From Flavobacteriales bacterium (GTDB lineage Bacteria > Bacteroidota > Bacteroidia > Flavobacteriales > Schleiferiaceae), in assembly GCA_018623275.1 (NCBI GenBank), contig JAAZVU010000002.1, positions 1 to 42,478 on the forward strand: DNA of 42,478 nucleotides, written 5' to 3'. Positions 10,796-35,968 of the stretch are shown piece after piece; position 1 is the first letter of the stretch; the number at the start of each line of letters is the position of its first letter. The notes below the pieces were generated by a model. The model made no database searches, was not told the DNA's origin, and saw only the letters and a program-made list of their open reading frames with translations. A program made the translations under genes and the position numbers.

Positions 10796-11000
10796 CTCTT
10801 CCTGTTTATTAGGGTTGTTATAAATCAATTATAATGGGGGGAGAAGGCTGCTTGCCAAGTGAGATGCTGGTCTGTATTTAGCATTTTTTACTGTGGTTGC
10901 AAGCAGTCAAATCCTTCCACGGGTTCAAAAGTAGAAAAGAATTTAGTTTTTCTAACCCAAGTCGACAAAAAATCAAAAAATCGCTTTAATTTTACGCCGC

Positions 11001-11097
11001 TATCAAGAAAGACCGAGGGATTGGGCCCTGTGAAGTCTTGGCAACCCGGAAGTGCCGGGTGCCACAACCCACCTCTTAACAAGAGGAATGATACGGA
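11001..11097 (+). ncRNA. SAM-I (S-box) riboswitch aptamer upstream of metH
   Basis: TATCAAGAAAGACCGAGGGATTGGGCCCTGTGAAGTCTTGGCAACC...GGTGCCACAACCC...CCTCTTAACAAGAGG-AATGATACGG: conserved SAM-I core (AGGGA-GGCCC, GAAG-C-TGGCAACC, GGTGCCA), P3/P4 hairpins and closing TATC/GATA P1 helix. Confidence 0.92.
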
Positions 11098-11146
11098 TCA
11101 CAGTTGCGTCTCCACCTTTCTTTATAGCCACCTAACACAACAGGAG

Positions 11147-12139
11147 ATGAGCGTTAAAAAGGCTTTACAAGAAAAAATATTGGTTTTGGACGGTGCCATG
11201 GGTACCATGATCCAAGCGTATAAGTTTGAAGAAGAAGATTACCGTGGTGATCGATTTAAGGATTACGCACACCCACTAAAAGGCAATAATGACCTTTTGG
11301 TACTTACCCAACCTCAGGCTATTGAGGACATCCATTTAGCCTATTTAGAGGCCGGGGCAGATATCCTAGAAACAAACACGTTCAATGCAAATTCCATTTC
11401 GATGGAAGATTACCACATGAGCGACCTTGTTGAAGAACTCAATGTAGAAGCTGTTGCCTGCGCACGTCGAGCCATCGAGCGCTTCCATGCGAACGGTGGC
11501 GATGCCCCGAAATTCATTGCGGGATCTGTTGGGCCAACCAACAAAACGGCCTCTTTAAGTCCTGATGTCAACAACCCAGGCTACCGAGCGGTAACTTTTG
11601 ATGACTTGAAAAGTACCTATTACGAGCAATGCGTTGCACTGATCAACGCAGGCGTGGATATCCTCCTCATCGAGACGGTCTTTGATACATTGAATGCAAA
11701 GGCTGCACTTTTTGCCGCCCAAGATGCTATTGAAGCGAGCGGAAAGGAAGTAGAAATCATGTTGAGTGGTACCATTACCGATGCTTCTGGGCGTACACTG
11801 AGTGGCCAGACCACTGAGGCATTTTTAATCTCAGTAAGTCATTCCCCGCTACTTAGTGTTGGATTGAATTGTGCATTAGGCGCTAAACAATTGATGCCTT
11901 ATCTGCAAACATTAGATGCTAAAGCGCCGTTTGCTGTTAGTGCCCACCCGAATGCAGGCTTGCCAAATGCCTTCGGTGAATACGACGAGACGCCAGAGCA
12001 AATGGCTGCGCAGATTAAAGATTATTTGGATTTGAATTTGATCAATATCATTGGCGGTTGTTGCGGTACATCACCGGCACATATTAAAGCCATCGCCGAT
12101 TTATCTAAAAATTACACTCCGAGAACCTATGAGCACTAA
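11147..12139 (+). CDS. metH: Methionine synthase N-terminal part: homocysteine S-methyltransferase domain
   Basis: [37 protein letters not shown]; Zn-site motifs GLNCALG and [14 protein letters not shown]. The track ORF starts upstream inside the leader; the true ATG is likely 11147. Confidence 0.93.
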
Positions 12140-14786
12140 CCTTCCACCGCGTCCAATGCGCTTGAGTGGGTTAGAGCCACTCGTAATTACAGAAGAAACC
12201 AACTTTGTCAATGTTGGTGAGCGTACGAACGTCACAGGTTCGCGTAAGTTTTTACGCTTGATCAAGGAACGTAAGTTTGACGAAGCCTTAGACATTGCAC
12301 GCGATCAAGTTGAAGGCGGCGCTCAGATCTTAGACGTGAACATGGACGAGGGTATGATCGATGGGGTAGAAGCCATGACGACCTTCTTAAACCTCATTGC
12401 GGCAGAACCGGACATCGCACGCATTCCTGTTATGATTGATTCTTCCAAATGGGAAATCATTGAGGCGGGACTTAAATGTGTTCAAGGTAAATGTGTGGTC
12501 AATTCTATCTCACTCAAAGGCGGTGAAGAAGAATTCATCCATCAAGCTACCACTATCAAGCGCTTCGGCGCTGCGGTCATTGTTATGGCATTCGATGAGG
12601 ACGGTCAGGCAGATAATTACGAGCGTCGCATTGAAATTTGTGAGCGTTCCTACAAGGTACTCACCGAAAAAGTAGGCTTCCCACCAGAGGACATCATTTT
12701 CGATCCAAACATCTTTCCGGTTGCCACGGGGATGGAGGAGCACCGCTTAAATGCACTGGACTTTTTCCGTGCTACCAAATGGATCCGCGAAAATCTTCCT
12801 TATGCCAAAGTGAGCGGTGGGGTGAGTAACGTAAGCTTTAGCTTCAGAGGAAACAATACGGTAAGAGAGGCTATGCATGCTTCTTTCTTGTACCACGCCA
12901 TTCAAAACGGAATGAGCATGGGAATTGTGAACCCAACGATGCTTGAGGTTTACGAGGAAGTAGATAAAGAATTAATGACCTACATCGAGGATGTACTTCT
13001 CGACCGTAGAGACGATGCAACAGAGCGATTGCTTGAATTTGCACAGACCGTTGAAGGTACTGCTAAAGACGAAGCGAAAGTCCTTGAGTGGCGTAACGAG
13101 CCTGCTGCAAAGCGATTGCAGCATGCCCTGATCAAAGGGATTACGGAGTTCATTGATGATGATGTAGAGGAGGCACGTCAGCAGTACGCACGCCCGCTTG
13201 AAGTTATCGAAGGTCCTCTGATGGACGGTATGAATGTCGTAGGTGATCTTTTTGGTGAAGGGAAAATGTTCTTGCCTCAGGTAGTCAAGAGTGCCCGTGT
13301 CATGAAAAAGGCGGTTGCCTATCTACTGCCTTACCTAGAAGCTGAGAAAGCTGAAGGTGGTAGCTCGAGCGCGGGTAAAGTTTTACTTGCCACCGTAAAA
13401 GGCGATGTCCATGATATCGGTAAAAATATTGTGGGTGTTGTACTCGCATGTAACAATTTTGAAATCATTGACCTTGGGGTGATGGTACCGCCAGAGAAGA
13501 TTCTACAAGCTGCTCAGGAACACCAGGTAGATATCTTGGGACTCAGTGGACTAATTACGCCGTCTTTGGATGAGATGATTCACATCGCCAAGGAAATGGA
13601 ACGCATGAATATGCACATTCCACTGCTTATTGGTGGGGCGACGACTTCGAGAGCGCATACTGCGGTGAAGATTGATCCAGAGTACAGTGGTGCGGTAATG
13701 CACGTAAGTGATGCGAGCCGTGCAGTAGGTGTAAGCTCTAAGCTGCTTTCAAGCGAAGGGCCTACTTATGTATTGCAAGAGAAAGCCTCTCTTGAAAAGG
13801 TGAGAGAGGGGTATGCGAAGCAACGCGAGCGCAAAGCATTGGTACCGTTTGAATTTGCGCAGAAAAAGAAGCCAGAATTGGTCTTTGATAAAACCACAGT
13901 TCCTACGCCAAAATTCATTGGAAGTAGACAGGTACACGATATTGCCATAGGTGATGTGGTCCCATACATTGACTGGACGCCGTTCTTCCAGACCTGGCAG
14001 CTTTTTGGAAAGTACCCAAGAATTCTTGAGGATAATGTAGTGGGTGAAGAGGCCAAGAAGCTCTTTAAAGATGCACAGGCCATGCTTCGTGAGATCAAAA
14101 AAGGCGGATGGCTCACGCTAAAAGCTGCTTACGGGATTTTCCCCGCAAACAGTGCCGGTGAAGAAATTAAGCTTGGCGAAAACGGTGAATTAGGCAGTTT
14201 CTATGCGCTGCGTCAGACGGGTGAGAAATCTAAATTCCAAAGCTTGGCAGATTTTGTAGCGCCAGAAGGAAGTGTGCAAGATTACGTCGGATGTTTTGCA
14301 GTGACGGCAGGCTTGGATATGGAAGGTCCATTGAAGCGCTTTGAAGATGCCATGGATGATTACAATGCATTGATGTTAAAAGCATTGGCAGACCGATTGG
14401 CAGAAGCATTGGCGGAATACCTGCACCTACGTATGCGTCGCGAGTTCTGGGGATATGCACCACACGAGCAATTGACCAACGATGATCTAATTGCAGAGAA
14501 ATATAGCGGGATTCGCCCTGCTCCGGGATATCCAGCGTGTCCAGACCACCTTGATAAGGAAACCATATTCGAGTTGTTGAAGGCCGAAGAAATAGGGATG
14601 TCATTGACTGAAAGTCTTGCCATGTACCCTGCGGCAAGTGTGAGCGGTTATTACTTCGCACACCCAGAAAGCAAATATTTCGCCGTGGGTAAATTGGCCA
14701 AAGATCAAGTGGAGGCTTATGCAGAAATGCGTGGCATCTCTATGGAGCTTGCAGAAAAGTGGCTGGCGCCAAACTTAAATTATTGA
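12129..14786 (+). CDS. metH: Methionine synthase C-terminal part: pterin-binding, cobalamin-binding and reactivation domains
   Basis: [17 protein letters not shown] (pterin), [18 protein letters not shown] (DxHxxG B12 site), [22 protein letters not shown] and [24 protein letters not shown] (activation domain). ATG overlaps the upstream stop by 11 nt. Confidence 0.94.
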
Positions 14787-30323: not shown

Positions 30324-30434
30324 TTTTACTCTTTTTGTGTTATCACTAAGAGCGCAAATTTAAGTGTTCGTCGGCATTTGATGTTTTTTTCGAACCGATT
30401 TTATAAACCATATTTCGATAGTAATTTAGCCCCA

Positions 30435-30869
30435 ATGAAAAACACGCCAACCAAGGAGCAAGTTTTAGAAACCATGAACCGTCTTTCGAAGGACACGCTC
30501 ATGGAGACTCTAAACATAAAATACGTGGATGCTGACCCTCTAACAGGTAAGCTAGTAGCCACAATGCCAGTAGATTCGCGTGTATACCAACCCATGCGAA
30601 TTTTGCACGGAGGTGCGACTGTAGCCCTCGCTGAAAGTGTCGGATCTGCAGCTTCTCAGATGCTGATTGACCCTGCAAAGGAAATGGCAGTAGGAGCGGA
30701 AATTTCCGCGAATCATCTCAAAAGTGCGCGCACGGGAACACTTATAGCTACCGCTGAGTGTGTTCATCATGGAAAAAGTTCTCATTTGTACCACATTCGA
30801 GTGGAAAATGAAACTGGCGATTTAATCTCCATGGTCAAGCTTTTAAACTTCGTTAAACAACGTAAATAA
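30435..30869 (+). CDS. Hotdog-fold thioesterase, PaaI/MenI-like
   Basis: MPVDSRVYQPMRILHGGATVALAESVGSAAS; first gene of the men run, stop overlaps next start (TAATG). The track start at 30237 lies inside thrS antisense, so 30435 is preferred. Confidence 0.88.
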   Translation: MKNTPTKEQVLETMNRLSKDTLMETLNIKYVDADPLTGKLVATMPVDSRVYQPMRILHGGATVALAESVGSAASQMLIDPAKEMAVGAEISANHLKSARTGTLIATAECVHHGKSSHLYHIRVENETGDLISMVKLLNFVKQRK

Positions 30870-31831
30870 TGCTCGAGGTACTACTTCGCATTCCCAACCA
30901 ACCACTCCGCAGTCTTCGCTGCGAAGAAACCTCGGCAGCTGCTGCAAATTTGGTTTTACGTGGTTTCAAGGGTGAAGTAGGCTATTACCAGAGTCTTGAT
31001 GCAGAAATAGATCCATTATTTTGGGAGACGTTTTCTGTGGAATCCAATGACGATTCTGAAGTCAAAAGTGCCTTAGAATACCAGCAGATGGTTGCAAGTG
31101 CTGTTTCTCAGATTCAGAAACATACTGTTCAAAAGGTTGTTTTAAGTCGCAAGCAGTTCTGGGATTGCCCGGGTGCGAATCCAAAATTGACTTTTGAAAG
31201 GCTGCTAGAAAATTATCCTTCGTGCACCGTTTTCGCACTAAAGCATGAGCGCTATGGCTCATGGATGGGGGCTTCTCCTGAAGTGTTGCTCGAGAGCACT
31301 GAAGAGGGCTATCGAAGTATGTCGCTAGCAGGAACGAGGTTGGAAGGCAATACCCATTGGGGTCAAAAGGAGCTGGAAGAGCAGAAATTTGTCACTAAGG
31401 AGGTTCATAAGAGTCTGAAAGAGTTCGGAGGCAAGATAACTAGAGACCAGCAGCGTACTTTTAACGCCGGACCGGTAGAGCATCTGCTGACATGGGTCAA
31501 TACGGATAATGTAGAATTGGACCCGAAAGCGGCAGCAGAAGAATTACATCCGACGCCTGCCATTTGCGGATCTCCATCAGATGCAGCTCAAGCACTAATA
31601 GGGCAATTAGAGGGTTACGACCGTTCTCTTTACGCGGGTTATTTAGGCGTATTTGAACAGCACGTGCATGCGACTGTTCTATTGAGGACGATGAAGTGGT
31701 TTTCAAATGGTGTCCAATTTTATGCCGGTGGTGGTATTACCAAAGACAGCGTACCTTTGGACGAGTGGATGGAAACCCAACACAAAATCTCTGCATTAAA
31801 GGAGTTAATTCAAATAGATGACCTCGGATAA
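30869..31831 (+). CDS. menF: Isochorismate synthase
   Basis: Chorismate-binding motifs: VQKVVLSRK, WMGASPEVLLE, MSLAGTR, VEHLLTWV, HPTPAICGSP, YAGYLGVFE, QFYAGGGITKDS. Confidence 0.93.
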   Translation: MLEVLLRIPNQPLRSLRCEETSAAAANLVLRGFKGEVGYYQSLDAEIDPLFWETFSVESNDDSEVKSALEYQQMVASAVSQIQKHTVQKVVLSRKQFWDCPGANPKLTFERLLENYPSCTVFALKHERYGSWMGASPEVLLESTEEGYRSMSLAGTRLEGNTHWGQKELEEQKFVTKEVHKSLKEFGGKITRDQQRTFNAGPVEHLLTWVNTDNVELDPKAAAEELHPTPAICGSPSDAAQALIGQLEGYDRSLYAGYLGVFEQHVHATVLLRTMKWFSNGVQFYAGGGITKDSVPLDEWMETQHKISALKELIQIDDLG

Positions 31832-33356
31832 GGCTATAGCACATTGGACCATAGATGCCCTTATACAATTGGGTATGCAGCGCCTTATTTATTCTCCCGG
31901 ATCTAGAAATACACCCTTGATCATTGCAGGGACAGGACATTCTGCTCTTGAACATCATACCGTATTGGACGAACGTAGTGCCGCTTTTCAAGCTATAGGT
32001 GCCTCTTTGATGACCGATCAAATTGTGGGTGTTTGCTGCACCTCCGGTAGTGCTTTGGCGAATTATTATCCAGCTGTTTTAGAAGCATTTTACAGCAAGA
32101 TTCCGCTTGTGCTTATTACTGCAGATCGACCCTTAGATAGAATTGGCAAAGGGGAGGGGCAAACCTGCGATCAAACGGATTTTTACGGGTCGCATATTGG
32201 ATTCTCAGCATCATTCGATGAAAGCACCACTGTGGAGGAGATTAAAGAAGTCTTCTCGCACATTCACCATAGTTTGGCCATCAAAAAAGAGCCCGTACAT
32301 ATTAATATTCATTTTGATGAACCGTTATATGGTCAGGTGGAACATGTAGAATCTGTTCGATTGCCAGAGTTTGCGCTAACCAAGAGTAAGCCAGCAGATC
32401 TTTCACCTTTGAGCAGTTGTCAGAAGGTAGCCGTCGTTTGTGGCCAATTGCGTCCTGAGGACGTTGAATTTTTCAAAACCTCCGGATTGATCTCTTCCTC
32501 CAATGCTACTTGGTTTGTCGATCCACTAAGCGGTCTGTTGGGAGCGGGAAATTGTGTGAATATTGATGAATTGGTTCATCACGAATTTGACGGGTTGCTT
32601 TCATTTGGTGGCCAGTGGATGAGCAAATTCCCAAAGTTTCATGTGCGCAAAATGAATCTTTCGGTTCATGTACATTGCGATGATCACCAAGCATGGAATG
32701 TCAGCGATTCACGGGACTTTATTTGGCATAAGGTATCTGCCAAAGAATTATCGGGTTGGTCATCCTGTAGTTTCTTGAAAATTGCTGAGAAGCCACTCAA
32801 CCTGCCAGATCTTCCATGGTCAGATGCGTTGGCTGTTCAAACCATCGTCCAGTCTTTATCCAAGGAGGATATTCTCCATTTGGGGAATAGTTCTATTCCT
32901 CGTTACATGAGCTATTTTCTGCATCAAGGCGCAGTGTATTGCAATCGAGGTGTAAGTGGTATTGACGGGAGTTTAAGCACTGCTGTCGGCGCTGCTCGAG
33001 TGCGTCCTGAGAAAAATCATGTGCTGATAATAGGGGACCAGAGTTTTCTCTACGACAGCAATGCATTGATGCATCTTCGAGAGGTAGACAATCTTCGAGT
33101 TTTCGTGATCAATAATTGTGTGGGGGAAATCTTCAATTGGCTCCCAGGTACATCACAGACTTCCAAGGCTGCCCAAGCGGTTTATTCGAACTATCAAGAA
33201 GTCGATATTGCAACCCTTGCCTTAGCATACGATTGCCGTAGTGAAGTAGCGCAGAACCTGAGTGAATTACAGAGCGCTGAAAGCACCTTGGTCGAAGTGC
33301 TCACCGTTGAAGGGAAGAATACTGAGGCCTTTGAGGCGCTCAAAAAAATGAATTGA
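31818..33356 (+). CDS. menD: 2-succinyl-5-enolpyruvyl-6-hydroxy-3-cyclohexene-1-carboxylate synthase
   Basis: YSPGSRNTPLIIA, DERSAAFQAIGASL, VCCTSGSALANYYPAVLEA; ThDP-enzyme fold. Overlaps menF by 14 nt. Confidence 0.94.
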   Translation: MTSDKAIAHWTIDALIQLGMQRLIYSPGSRNTPLIIAGTGHSALEHHTVLDERSAAFQAIGASLMTDQIVGVCCTSGSALANYYPAVLEAFYSKIPLVLITADRPLDRIGKGEGQTCDQTDFYGSHIGFSASFDESTTVEEIKEVFSHIHHSLAIKKEPVHINIHFDEPLYGQVEHVESVRLPEFALTKSKPADLSPLSSCQKVAVVCGQLRPEDVEFFKTSGLISSSNATWFVDPLSGLLGAGNCVNIDELVHHEFDGLLSFGGQWMSKFPKFHVRKMNLSVHVHCDDHQAWNVSDSRDFIWHKVSAKELSGWSSCSFLKIAEKPLNLPDLPWSDALAVQTIVQSLSKEDILHLGNSSIPRYMSYFLHQGAVYCNRGVSGIDGSLSTAVGAARVRPEKNHVLIIGDQSFLYDSNALMHLREVDNLRVFVINNCVGEIFNWLPGTSQTSKAAQAVYSNYQEVDIATLALAYDCRSEVAQNLSELQSAESTLVEVLTVEGKNTEAFEALKKMN

Positions 33357-33454
33357 TTTTCAATTATAAGTAAGTATAAAAACTTATCCGTTACCAACAT
33401 AGTGGAGTGCTTCAGGGTCTACGTTTCTTTGTTATGGAATGCAAATAGACCAAA

Positions 33455-34006
33455 ATGAAGGGACTTATTTTTCAAACGTACATCGATTTCTTGATCAAAT
33501 CTCAGGGAGAGGAACTCAAGAATTTCATTCTTCGCGACGCTGGTTCAGGCGATAGAGATTCTTACGAAGCCATGGGTACTTATCCATTCAAATCTCTTTA
33601 CGACGTAGTAGCGCAAACCCATGCACATACAGGAGATTCAGTGCCGAAAATTTTAGAAGACTACGGTTACTACTTGTTCGATATCTTAGCAGTGTCGTAC
33701 GCGAAGTACTTGGGTGAGGGAGTTGATTTGTTCGGTTTCTTGGAATCGCTTGAGGATCACGTACATGTACATGTGAACCAACAATTCCCGGACGCTTCAT
33801 TGCCGTCATTCACCTACGAGAGAATTGACGATAACAATCTGAAAATGATCTACGAAAGTGAGCGAGCAATGTCGGATTTCGGTATCGGAATGATCAAAGG
33901 GTCGGCGAAACATTTTGGAAACAAAGTGTCTATCGAAAAAGAAGATTTAACCCCTGATAATAATGGTACCGAGGTGGAGATCCGGGTGACCATTATAAAT
34001 GACTAA
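33455..34006 (+). CDS. Stand-alone H-NOX / heme NO-binding (HNOB) domain protein
   Basis: 183 aa; MKGLIFQTYIDFLIKSQGEE N-terminus, heme-ligand region LEDHVHVHVNQQFPDASLPSF (His104), YxSxR motif Y133-E-S-E-R137, MIKGSAKHFGNKVSIEKED; aligns without gaps to the recalled Thermoanaerobacter H-NOX sequence across His102-Tyr140. Confidence 0.88.
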   Translation: MKGLIFQTYIDFLIKSQGEELKNFILRDAGSGDRDSYEAMGTYPFKSLYDVVAQTHAHTGDSVPKILEDYGYYLFDILAVSYAKYLGEGVDLFGFLESLEDHVHVHVNQQFPDASLPSFTYERIDDNNLKMIYESERAMSDFGIGMIKGSAKHFGNKVSIEKEDLTPDNNGTEVEIRVTIIND

Positions 34007-34919
34007 AGAAACAGTTGCATTCAAGCATTGGGTAAAAGCGGCAAGGTTAAGAACACTGCCTCTAGCTTTTGCAGTTATCATTCTAGGCAGTGGGTTAGGC
34101 TATTTTCATATCGGCCAATTCTCTGCCTCTCTTTTTGTCCTAGCCTTACTAACGAGCTTTGCGTACCAAGTCTTGTCCAACTACGCGAATGACCTTGGAG
34201 ACGGCATTAAAGGGACGGACGAAAATAAGAAGGGCGAACAACGCGCTGTAGCTTCCGGCTTAATCACGATTTCGCAAATGCGATCAGCCACAAATGCATT
34301 TACCATACTCGCTTTAGTTTCGGGGGGTACACTAGTTTACTTGGCCTTTTTCGGGACATTCCACTTTTACATTTTCTCCATTTTGAATATTGCAGCCGTT
34401 TGGGCTGCTCGTTCCTACACATTGGGAAGCAACCCTTACGCTTATTGGGGTGGAGGGGACTTTTTCGTTTTTATCTTCTTTGGATTTGTAGGTGTGATGG
34501 GGTCTTCTGCCTTACAAACTGGTGCGTTCAATGCGATAGATGCATTGCCATCTTTAGTGGCTGGAGCCATGAGCGCTTCTGTACTAACTCTTAATAACCT
34601 AAGGGATAGGGAAGGTGATGCACTCCATGGCAAGAGAACCCTCGTCGTTCGATTCGGCGAAAAATGGGGTAGAGGGTATTTCAAAACCTTGTTAATCCTT
34701 TCTATCCTCGTTAGTCTCATCTTCTCAATACTCGCTAGTGCACTTTCTAAAGAGTATTATCCGATCATTGCACACTTAGTTTTCCAGTTTGCCTTACGAG
34801 GCCAATTCAAAAAGTTCAGTCAGGCAGGCATTCCAGAAGAATATGATGCCTTGCTTAAACCTTTGGCGCTAATGACTTTGTTGTATTGTGTACTTACATC
34901 AATCTCATTGTTTTTCTAA
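33999..34919 (+). CDS. menA: 1,4-dihydroxy-2-naphthoate polyprenyltransferase
   Basis: UbiA-family: NYANDLGDGIKGTDENKKGEQRAVASGLI, LNNLRDREGDALHGKRTLVVRFG, multiple TM segments. Overlaps the H-NOX stop by 8 nt (ATGACTAA). Confidence 0.94.
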   Translation: MTKETVAFKHWVKAARLRTLPLAFAVIILGSGLGYFHIGQFSASLFVLALLTSFAYQVLSNYANDLGDGIKGTDENKKGEQRAVASGLITISQMRSATNAFTILALVSGGTLVYLAFFGTFHFYIFSILNIAAVWAARSYTLGSNPYAYWGGGDFFVFIFFGFVGVMGSSALQTGAFNAIDALPSLVAGAMSASVLTLNNLRDREGDALHGKRTLVVRFGEKWGRGYFKTLLILSILVSLIFSILASALSKEYYPIIAHLVFQFALRGQFKKFSQAGIPEEYDALLKPLALMTLLYCVLTSISLFF

Positions 34920-35968
34920 TGGAAGCCAAATACACGTCTTACATCCTAAATTTTAAGATTCCTGGCGGCACCTCTCGTGGTGTATTAACCACCAAAGAGA
35001 GCTTCTTTATTGCCATCCACCACAAGGGAAAAATAGGTTTGGGTGAGGTAGGCGTTTTACGAGGTCTTTCCTACGACGATGTTCCAGAATTAGAATCTCA
35101 GGTTGCATGGACGTGCGAAAACATTCATCTAGGGCTAGCAGAGCTTTATGCTGCCAATAAACAATACCCGAGCATCCAATTCGCTTTAGAACAAGCATTC
35201 AGTCATCTAAAAAATGGCTTTGAGCACTTTCCATCCCCTTTTACTTCAGGGAAATCCACCCAGAATATCAATGGTCTCATTTGGATGGGGAGCTTATCCT
35301 TCATGCGCGATCAAGTAGCCAAACGTTTGGATGAAGGTTTCACCACCTTGAAAATGAAAGTAGGTGCCATTGGATGGAAGGAGGAAAAGTCCATTCTAAG
35401 CGCCTTAAGAAAGGAGTTTTCTGAAGATCAATTAGAACTTCGTGTAGATGCAAATGGTGCTTTTGAACTAGAAGAAGCCGTTGAGATCAGCAAGTATTTA
35501 CGTGATATTTCAGTCCATTCCATGGAACAACCCATTAAGGCAGGAAGAAACGAGGAACTGGCCAAGGCGGTAGAGCAGATGCATATCTCTGTGGCGCTCG
35601 ATGAGAGTCTCATTGGAATGATAGAGCGTAAACAGAAGAAAGAATTATTAGAGGCCATTAGACCACAATATATCATACTGAAGCCTTCATTCATTGGTGG
35701 CTGGAAAGGGGCTGATGAATGGATTGAGCTTGCTACAGCGCGCGATATTCAATGGTGGGCAACCTCTGCACTAGAAAGTAATGTAGGGCTAAATGCAATT
35801 GCTCAGTGGGCTTTCACGAAATCAAATCCAATTCCGCAAGGATTAGGCACAGGTAGTTTGTATACGAATAATATTGAAGGGCCTTACAGTGTAGAAGGGG
35901 GGCTACTGAAGGTGAAGAAGGATATTCTTACCGATTGGGATTTATCCTCTCTTAAATCGATCCTCTAA
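34919..35968 (+). CDS. menC: o-succinylbenzoate synthase (enolase superfamily)
   Basis: TTLKMKVGAIGWKEE, LRVDANGAFELEEA, SMEQPIKAG, VALDESLIG, ILKPSFIGG. TAATG junction with menA. Confidence 0.92.
   Translation: MEAKYTSYILNFKIPGGTSRGVLTTKESFFIAIHHKGKIGLGEVGVLRGLSYDDVPELESQVAWTCENIHLGLAELYAANKQYPSIQFALEQAFSHLKNGFEHFPSPFTSGKSTQNINGLIWMGSLSFMRDQVAKRLDEGFTTLKMKVGAIGWKEEKSILSALRKEFSEDQLELRVDANGAFELEEAVEISKYLRDISVHSMEQPIKAGRNEELAKAVEQMHISVALDESLIGMIERKQKKELLEAIRPQYIILKPSFIGGWKGADEWIELATARDIQWWATSALESNVGLNAIAQWAFTKSNPIPQGLGTGSLYTNNIEGPYSVEGGLLKVKKDILTDWDLSSLKSIL

Follow-up and report, generated by a model that had tools for sequence, protein, structure and literature searches.

An H-NOX gene within the menaquinone operon of Schleiferiaceae: a possible NO-responsive regulator of quinone synthesis

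The men operon and its hnox gene

The stretch of DNA analysed here, called the window, comprises 42,478 nt (positions 1 to 42,478 of contig JAAZVU010000002.1, assembly GCA_018623275.1) from a Flavobacteriales bacterium of the family Schleiferiaceae. Its genome (G000, 75% complete) has been compared with those of G008, a second species of the same genus (100% complete), and of G039 and G041 (the latter 99% complete), which represent two other genera of the family. On a single strand, the window carries genes of menaquinone biosynthesis in the order menI?-menF-menD-hnox-menA-menC, joined by short overlaps or gaps apart from the 98 nt preceding hnox (Table 1). The first gene encodes a thioesterase for which a function as MenI is possible, a role suggested by its position. 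No TAnnTTTG box of the Bacteroidota promoter type was seen by eye in the 98-nt gap. The 3' end of hnox and the start of menA share 8 nt, ATGACTAA, an overlap that had been reported in the earlier note and that has been confirmed by reading the sequence; H-NOX would be produced together with MenA.

Table 1. Features of the men operon, in positions of the window
Feature	Position	Strand	Evidence and remarks
PaaI/4HBT thioesterase, possible menI	30432..30869	+	PF03061, 58.1 bits
menF (isochorismate synthase)	30869..31831	+	PF00425, 171 bits; 14-nt overlap with menD
menD (SEPHCHC synthase)	31818..33356	+	TPP_enzyme_N and TPP_enzyme_C; 98 nt upstream of hnox
menD-hnox gap, 98 nt	33357..33454	+	Gap also in G008 (sequence comparison)
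hnox	33455..34006	+	183 aa, ATG start; PF07700, 123.2 bits; motif alignment; model
menA (DHNA prenyltransferase)	33999..34919	+	UbiA PF01040, 85.2 bits; TIGR00751, 200.9 bits (cut-off 102)
menC (o-succinylbenzoate synthase)	34922..35968	+	MR_MLE_C, 100.9 bits; MenC_N, 23.1 bits; 2 nt past menA

Two further observations concern the surroundings of hnox. When the window is aligned with G008 over 30901-35380, menF, menD and parts of menA and menC appear as blocks of 67-87% nucleotide identity, the men genes being more divergent than most neighbouring genes or hnox (89-97%). Elsewhere in the window (10859-14786), the cobalamin-dependent methionine synthase is encoded by two overlapping ORFs of about 426 and 911 aa, which we take to be an ordinary split form in Flavobacteria.

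The H-NOX protein

The ORF at 33455-34006 encodes a full-length, intact H-NOX protein, as had been claimed from its signature residues. The HNOB profile check proposed at that time gave a clear match to PF07700 (123.2 bits, cut-off 25.5, E = 1.3e-35), which extends over residues 2-161 of the protein and positions 1-162 of the 163 of the model. The haem motif is seen in the alignment as the proximal H104, P117 and Y133-S135-R137, residues that do not vary among the men-linked proteins and hardly vary among the kinase-linked ones; the invariant residues of the men-linked proteins include, together with YxSxR, a hinge-type Gly. An AlphaFold model built from the window protein and related sequences (pLDDT 83) has as its best solved match the H-NOX of Kordia algicida (6bde, TM 0.92), its other top matches being H-NOX structures as well, and the sequence-profile search agrees with this fold. 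The protein is a putative haem/NO binder.

As regards ligand selectivity, all four men-linked proteins have a phenylalanine (F142 in the window) at the position matched to Tyr140, the O2-stabilising residue of Tt H-NOX, a correspondence that we assume from a hand alignment and general knowledge of that protein. Tt H-NOX, an O2 binder fused to a chemotaxis receptor, shares the same haem fold, whereas the window protein is unfused and Phe replaces the distal Tyr. Taking into account the absence of this distal-pocket Tyr, the men-linked proteins are probably NO-selective rather than O2-binding. No Cys occurs among the 183 residues, the Cys cluster of the Vibrio cholerae type being absent, which excludes for this protein the zinc/thiol redox mode known from V. 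cholerae H-NOX.

Between the window and G008, hnox shows a dN of 0.013 and a dS of 0.34, and its dN/dS of 0.038, a value drawn from two species, is below those of the men neighbours in the same comparison (0.053-0.201). Such purifying selection indicates a working gene; a chance or degenerate ORF is ruled out by this ratio and by the complete motif set.

Distribution and gene order of men-linked hnox

In about 1,500 genome look-ups, made in overlapping sets, men-linked hnox was found in four genomes belonging to three genera of one family, and a contig scan limited to two short peptide patterns yielded these three relatives again, together with one distant H-NOX. Only 2 of the 25 genus members carry hnox, namely the window genome and G008, where it is also men-linked and its product is 97% identical to that of the window; hence, the gene is accessory and dispensable. 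Linkage in three genera rules out a single-genome oddity. Samples at the level of order, class and phylum added no case, and linkage as a general trait of Bacteroidota has been discarded. The men-hnox synteny that the earlier note had suggested following across Bacteroidota extends beyond one genome and, in the genomes covered, was found in one family.

The arrangement of the genes varies among the genera. In G041, the order is hnox-menA-menC and the 8-nt overlap is kept (ATGTCTAA vs ATGACTAA in the window), while in G039, where menD-menB-hnox is found, menA-menC is located on a separate contig, so hnox is not beside menA. In menA loci of the window genus without hnox, menD runs straight into menA, or, in two species, the order is menD-menB-menA; genera g5, g10 and g11 have menD-menB-menA-menC. 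Given the menD-menB-menA(-menC) order of these three genera and of the two species, one ancestral slot between menB and menA would accommodate all three hnox arrangements, and the gene orders fit an ancestral position of hnox directly upstream of menA.

Window and G041 are 42% identical in H-NOX and 44% in MenA, values within the range of kinase-linked H-NOX and of MenA in the family. The divergence of H-NOX thus tracks that of MenA, which is compatible with long co-inheritance. We do not favour the view that hnox and menA were recently transferred as a cassette from the G041 lineage, since both proteins are about equally diverged, and also because the window MenA is nearest to those of its own genus.

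A promoter-like site of Bacteroidota type, TTG-N20-TAATTTTG, is present in G041 (L036, 11905-11945) and ends about 7 nt upstream of the hnox start, so that the hnox leader may be very short or missing in that genome.

The patchy distribution, with 2 of 25 genus members, is what would be expected if hnox were a passenger inserted by chance in the men operon and had no functional tie to quinones. We regard this as improbable, taking into account that the linkage is found in three genera despite rearrangement of the operon, that the identical 8-nt overlap occurs in two of them, that the proteins form one dedicated clade (see below), and that the dN/dS is so low.

A separate clade among kinase-linked relatives

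The H-NOX tree, built from 68 sequences, places the men-linked four on one side of a branch with a support of 99/95 that was recovered in 200 of 200 bootstrap trees, and they constitute a distinct, well-supported clade. For each of the 56 Bacteroidota H-NOX nearest to it in the tree (56/56), a histidine kinase is encoded no more than 1.5 kb away. When the 1.5 kb flanks were searched with a profile made from ten such kinases, high-scoring Bacteroidota loci outside the men clade were found to carry a kinase homologue, with the sole exception of L128, whose contig ends right after hnox. This context agrees with the general observation that H-NOX genes adjoin genes for kinases or for diguanylate cyclases and phosphodiesterases (PMC8738867).

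Distant, low-scoring H-NOX genes without an adjoining kinase exist in other Bacteroidota families (L131-L135), some of them near sigma-factor genes or lipoprotein-like ORFs. An H-NOX gene lacking a kinase neighbour is therefore not unique in itself, and these loci may represent further partnerless groups.

The men-linked proteins share with the HnoX/HnoK type, in which H-NOX is encoded beside a kinase (G027, G055; the nearest solved relative being that of Kordia algicida, 6bdd/6bde), the fold, the proximal His, the Pro, the YxSxR motif, a similar length and the lack of a distal Tyr. They differ from it in belonging to a separate clade (kinase-linked proteins are 25-34% identical to the window H-NOX in the alignment made), in having no adjacent kinase, and in that the docking signature is missing from G000, G008 and G041.

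Search for signalling partners

The earlier note had stated that the usual partners are absent from the window, and this holds: neither the domain scan nor the reading of the other ORFs revealed kinase, GGDEF/EAL or chemotaxis domains among the window genes. The absence also extends genome-wide to the two nearly complete relatives. No kinase gene directly flanks any men-linked copy, the adjoining genes being men genes. The N-terminal coiled coil of H-NOX-associated kinases was taken as their signature, and its profile matched in G039 and in the two controls, G027 and G055, and gave no match in G008, G041 and G000, where the only H-NOX is the men-linked one; the result for G000 carries little weight, since this genome is 75% complete. 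GGDEF likewise had no match genome-wide in G000, G008 and G041.

H-NOX proteins acting on a diguanylate cyclase or phosphodiesterase offer a parallel to the role proposed below, in that a single-domain H-NOX would there, too, act directly on an enzyme encoded by a neighbouring gene. The men-linked genes differ from these in having menaquinone enzymes as neighbours, and no GGDEF match in the three genomes mentioned.

Kinase signalling is the usual route of H-NOX (PMC8738867), and HisKA kinases are found in all the genomes concerned, with 9 encoded in trans in G000, 19 in G008 and 10 in G041; the men-linked protein could accordingly be paired with an unrelated kinase. The men operon would then merely provide co-expression with respiratory genes, and the signal would pass through a non-cognate histidine kinase elsewhere. 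We consider this unlikely, though worth weighing: the N-terminus of H-NOX-associated kinases, found in the controls, is missing from G008, G041 and G000, the men-linked copies have no directly flanking kinase gene, and G039 possesses both kinds of H-NOX, which points to divided roles. The kinase-linked and men-linked genes of G039 (L004, L037) constitute a natural pair for a comparison of partner specificity. In G008, a weak HisKA ORF is located about 7.5 kb away, inside an insert absent from the window.

A single domain for which no partner was found, co-encoded with quinone synthesis, might also be a haem/NO buffer or a sensor of the redox state of the quinone pool, by menaquinol-driven haem redox at the membrane or by scavenging of NO near respiratory enzymes. 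This appears rather doubtful, taking into account that the H-NOX proteins characterised so far serve as signalling modules, and that YxSxR and the hinge-type Gly are invariant here; scavenging, moreover, would be poorly served by co-expression with a low-flux biosynthetic operon.

A proposed role in menaquinone synthesis

It is proposed that the men-linked H-NOX regulates menaquinone synthesis in response to NO, probably by contacting a Men enzyme directly. We put this forward tentatively, at somewhat less than an even chance, with NO binding, partner and direction all inferred. As the best explanation it is supported by the absence of canonical partners, by the clade and by the repeated men linkage, a set of genomic comparisons that comprises four genomes and at most three lineages. 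In evolutionary terms, a clade of NO-selective, single-domain H-NOX proteins would have exchanged the kinase and c-di-GMP circuits for a place in the men operon. The stronger form, in which proteins of this clade exert direct allosteric control over a menaquinone-synthesis enzyme and would be the first H-NOX to target a biosynthetic enzyme rather than a kinase, cyclase or chemoreceptor, is possible but more speculative.

Under the proposed mechanism, H-NOX would bind NO through its ferrous haem, and one of its ligand states would make contact with a Men enzyme, which could be the membrane-located MenA or a cytosolic protein such as MenD or MenB. The synthesis of DHNA and menaquinone would thereby follow the NO load of the respiratory chain. 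By analogy with the inhibition of kinases by NO-bound H-NOX, the favoured direction, which is the least certain part, is that NO would slow quinone synthesis while the terminal oxidases are blocked.

Haem-copper oxidases are blocked by NO. Genes for aa3-type oxidases are present in G008 and G000, together with a cbb3 fragment in G000, and G041 has a cbb3 oxidase as well as a cNorB-type NO reductase gene (L189, 372 bits to solved NorB); taken together, these make NO a plausible respiratory signal in these organisms. A scan of MenA for coevolution with H-NOX, which like that of MenC was short of statistical power, yielded two shared rare residues, F36 and K78, a weak, post hoc result that was matched by 1 of 300 control quartets, and the scan of MenC, equally post hoc, yielded one shared site, at the control level.

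Regulation of this pathway at the protein level is known elsewhere, since MenD is allosterically inhibited by DHNA in Staphylococcus aureus and Mycobacterium tuberculosis (PMC9835592). Both that case and the one proposed here would be protein-level control of menaquinone synthesis, exerted there by metabolite feedback and here by a gas-sensor protein. In the portion of the literature covered, which is incomplete and does not prove absence, no link between H-NOX and menaquinone is announced in the titles or abstracts of papers naming both. A chorismate-binding enzyme is drawn near hnox for some H-NOX group in the neighbourhood figure of a review (PMC8738867).

Outlook

The presence of an H-NOX gene in the men operon suggests an undescribed route by which NO may control the supply of respiratory quinone in this family. 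The exchange of a kinase or c-di-GMP context for the men operon allows the idea that NO sets quinone supply by direct protein contact to be tested clearly and at little cost. If this is true, NO toxicity, respiration and the synthesis of vitamin K2 would be connected in a single step.
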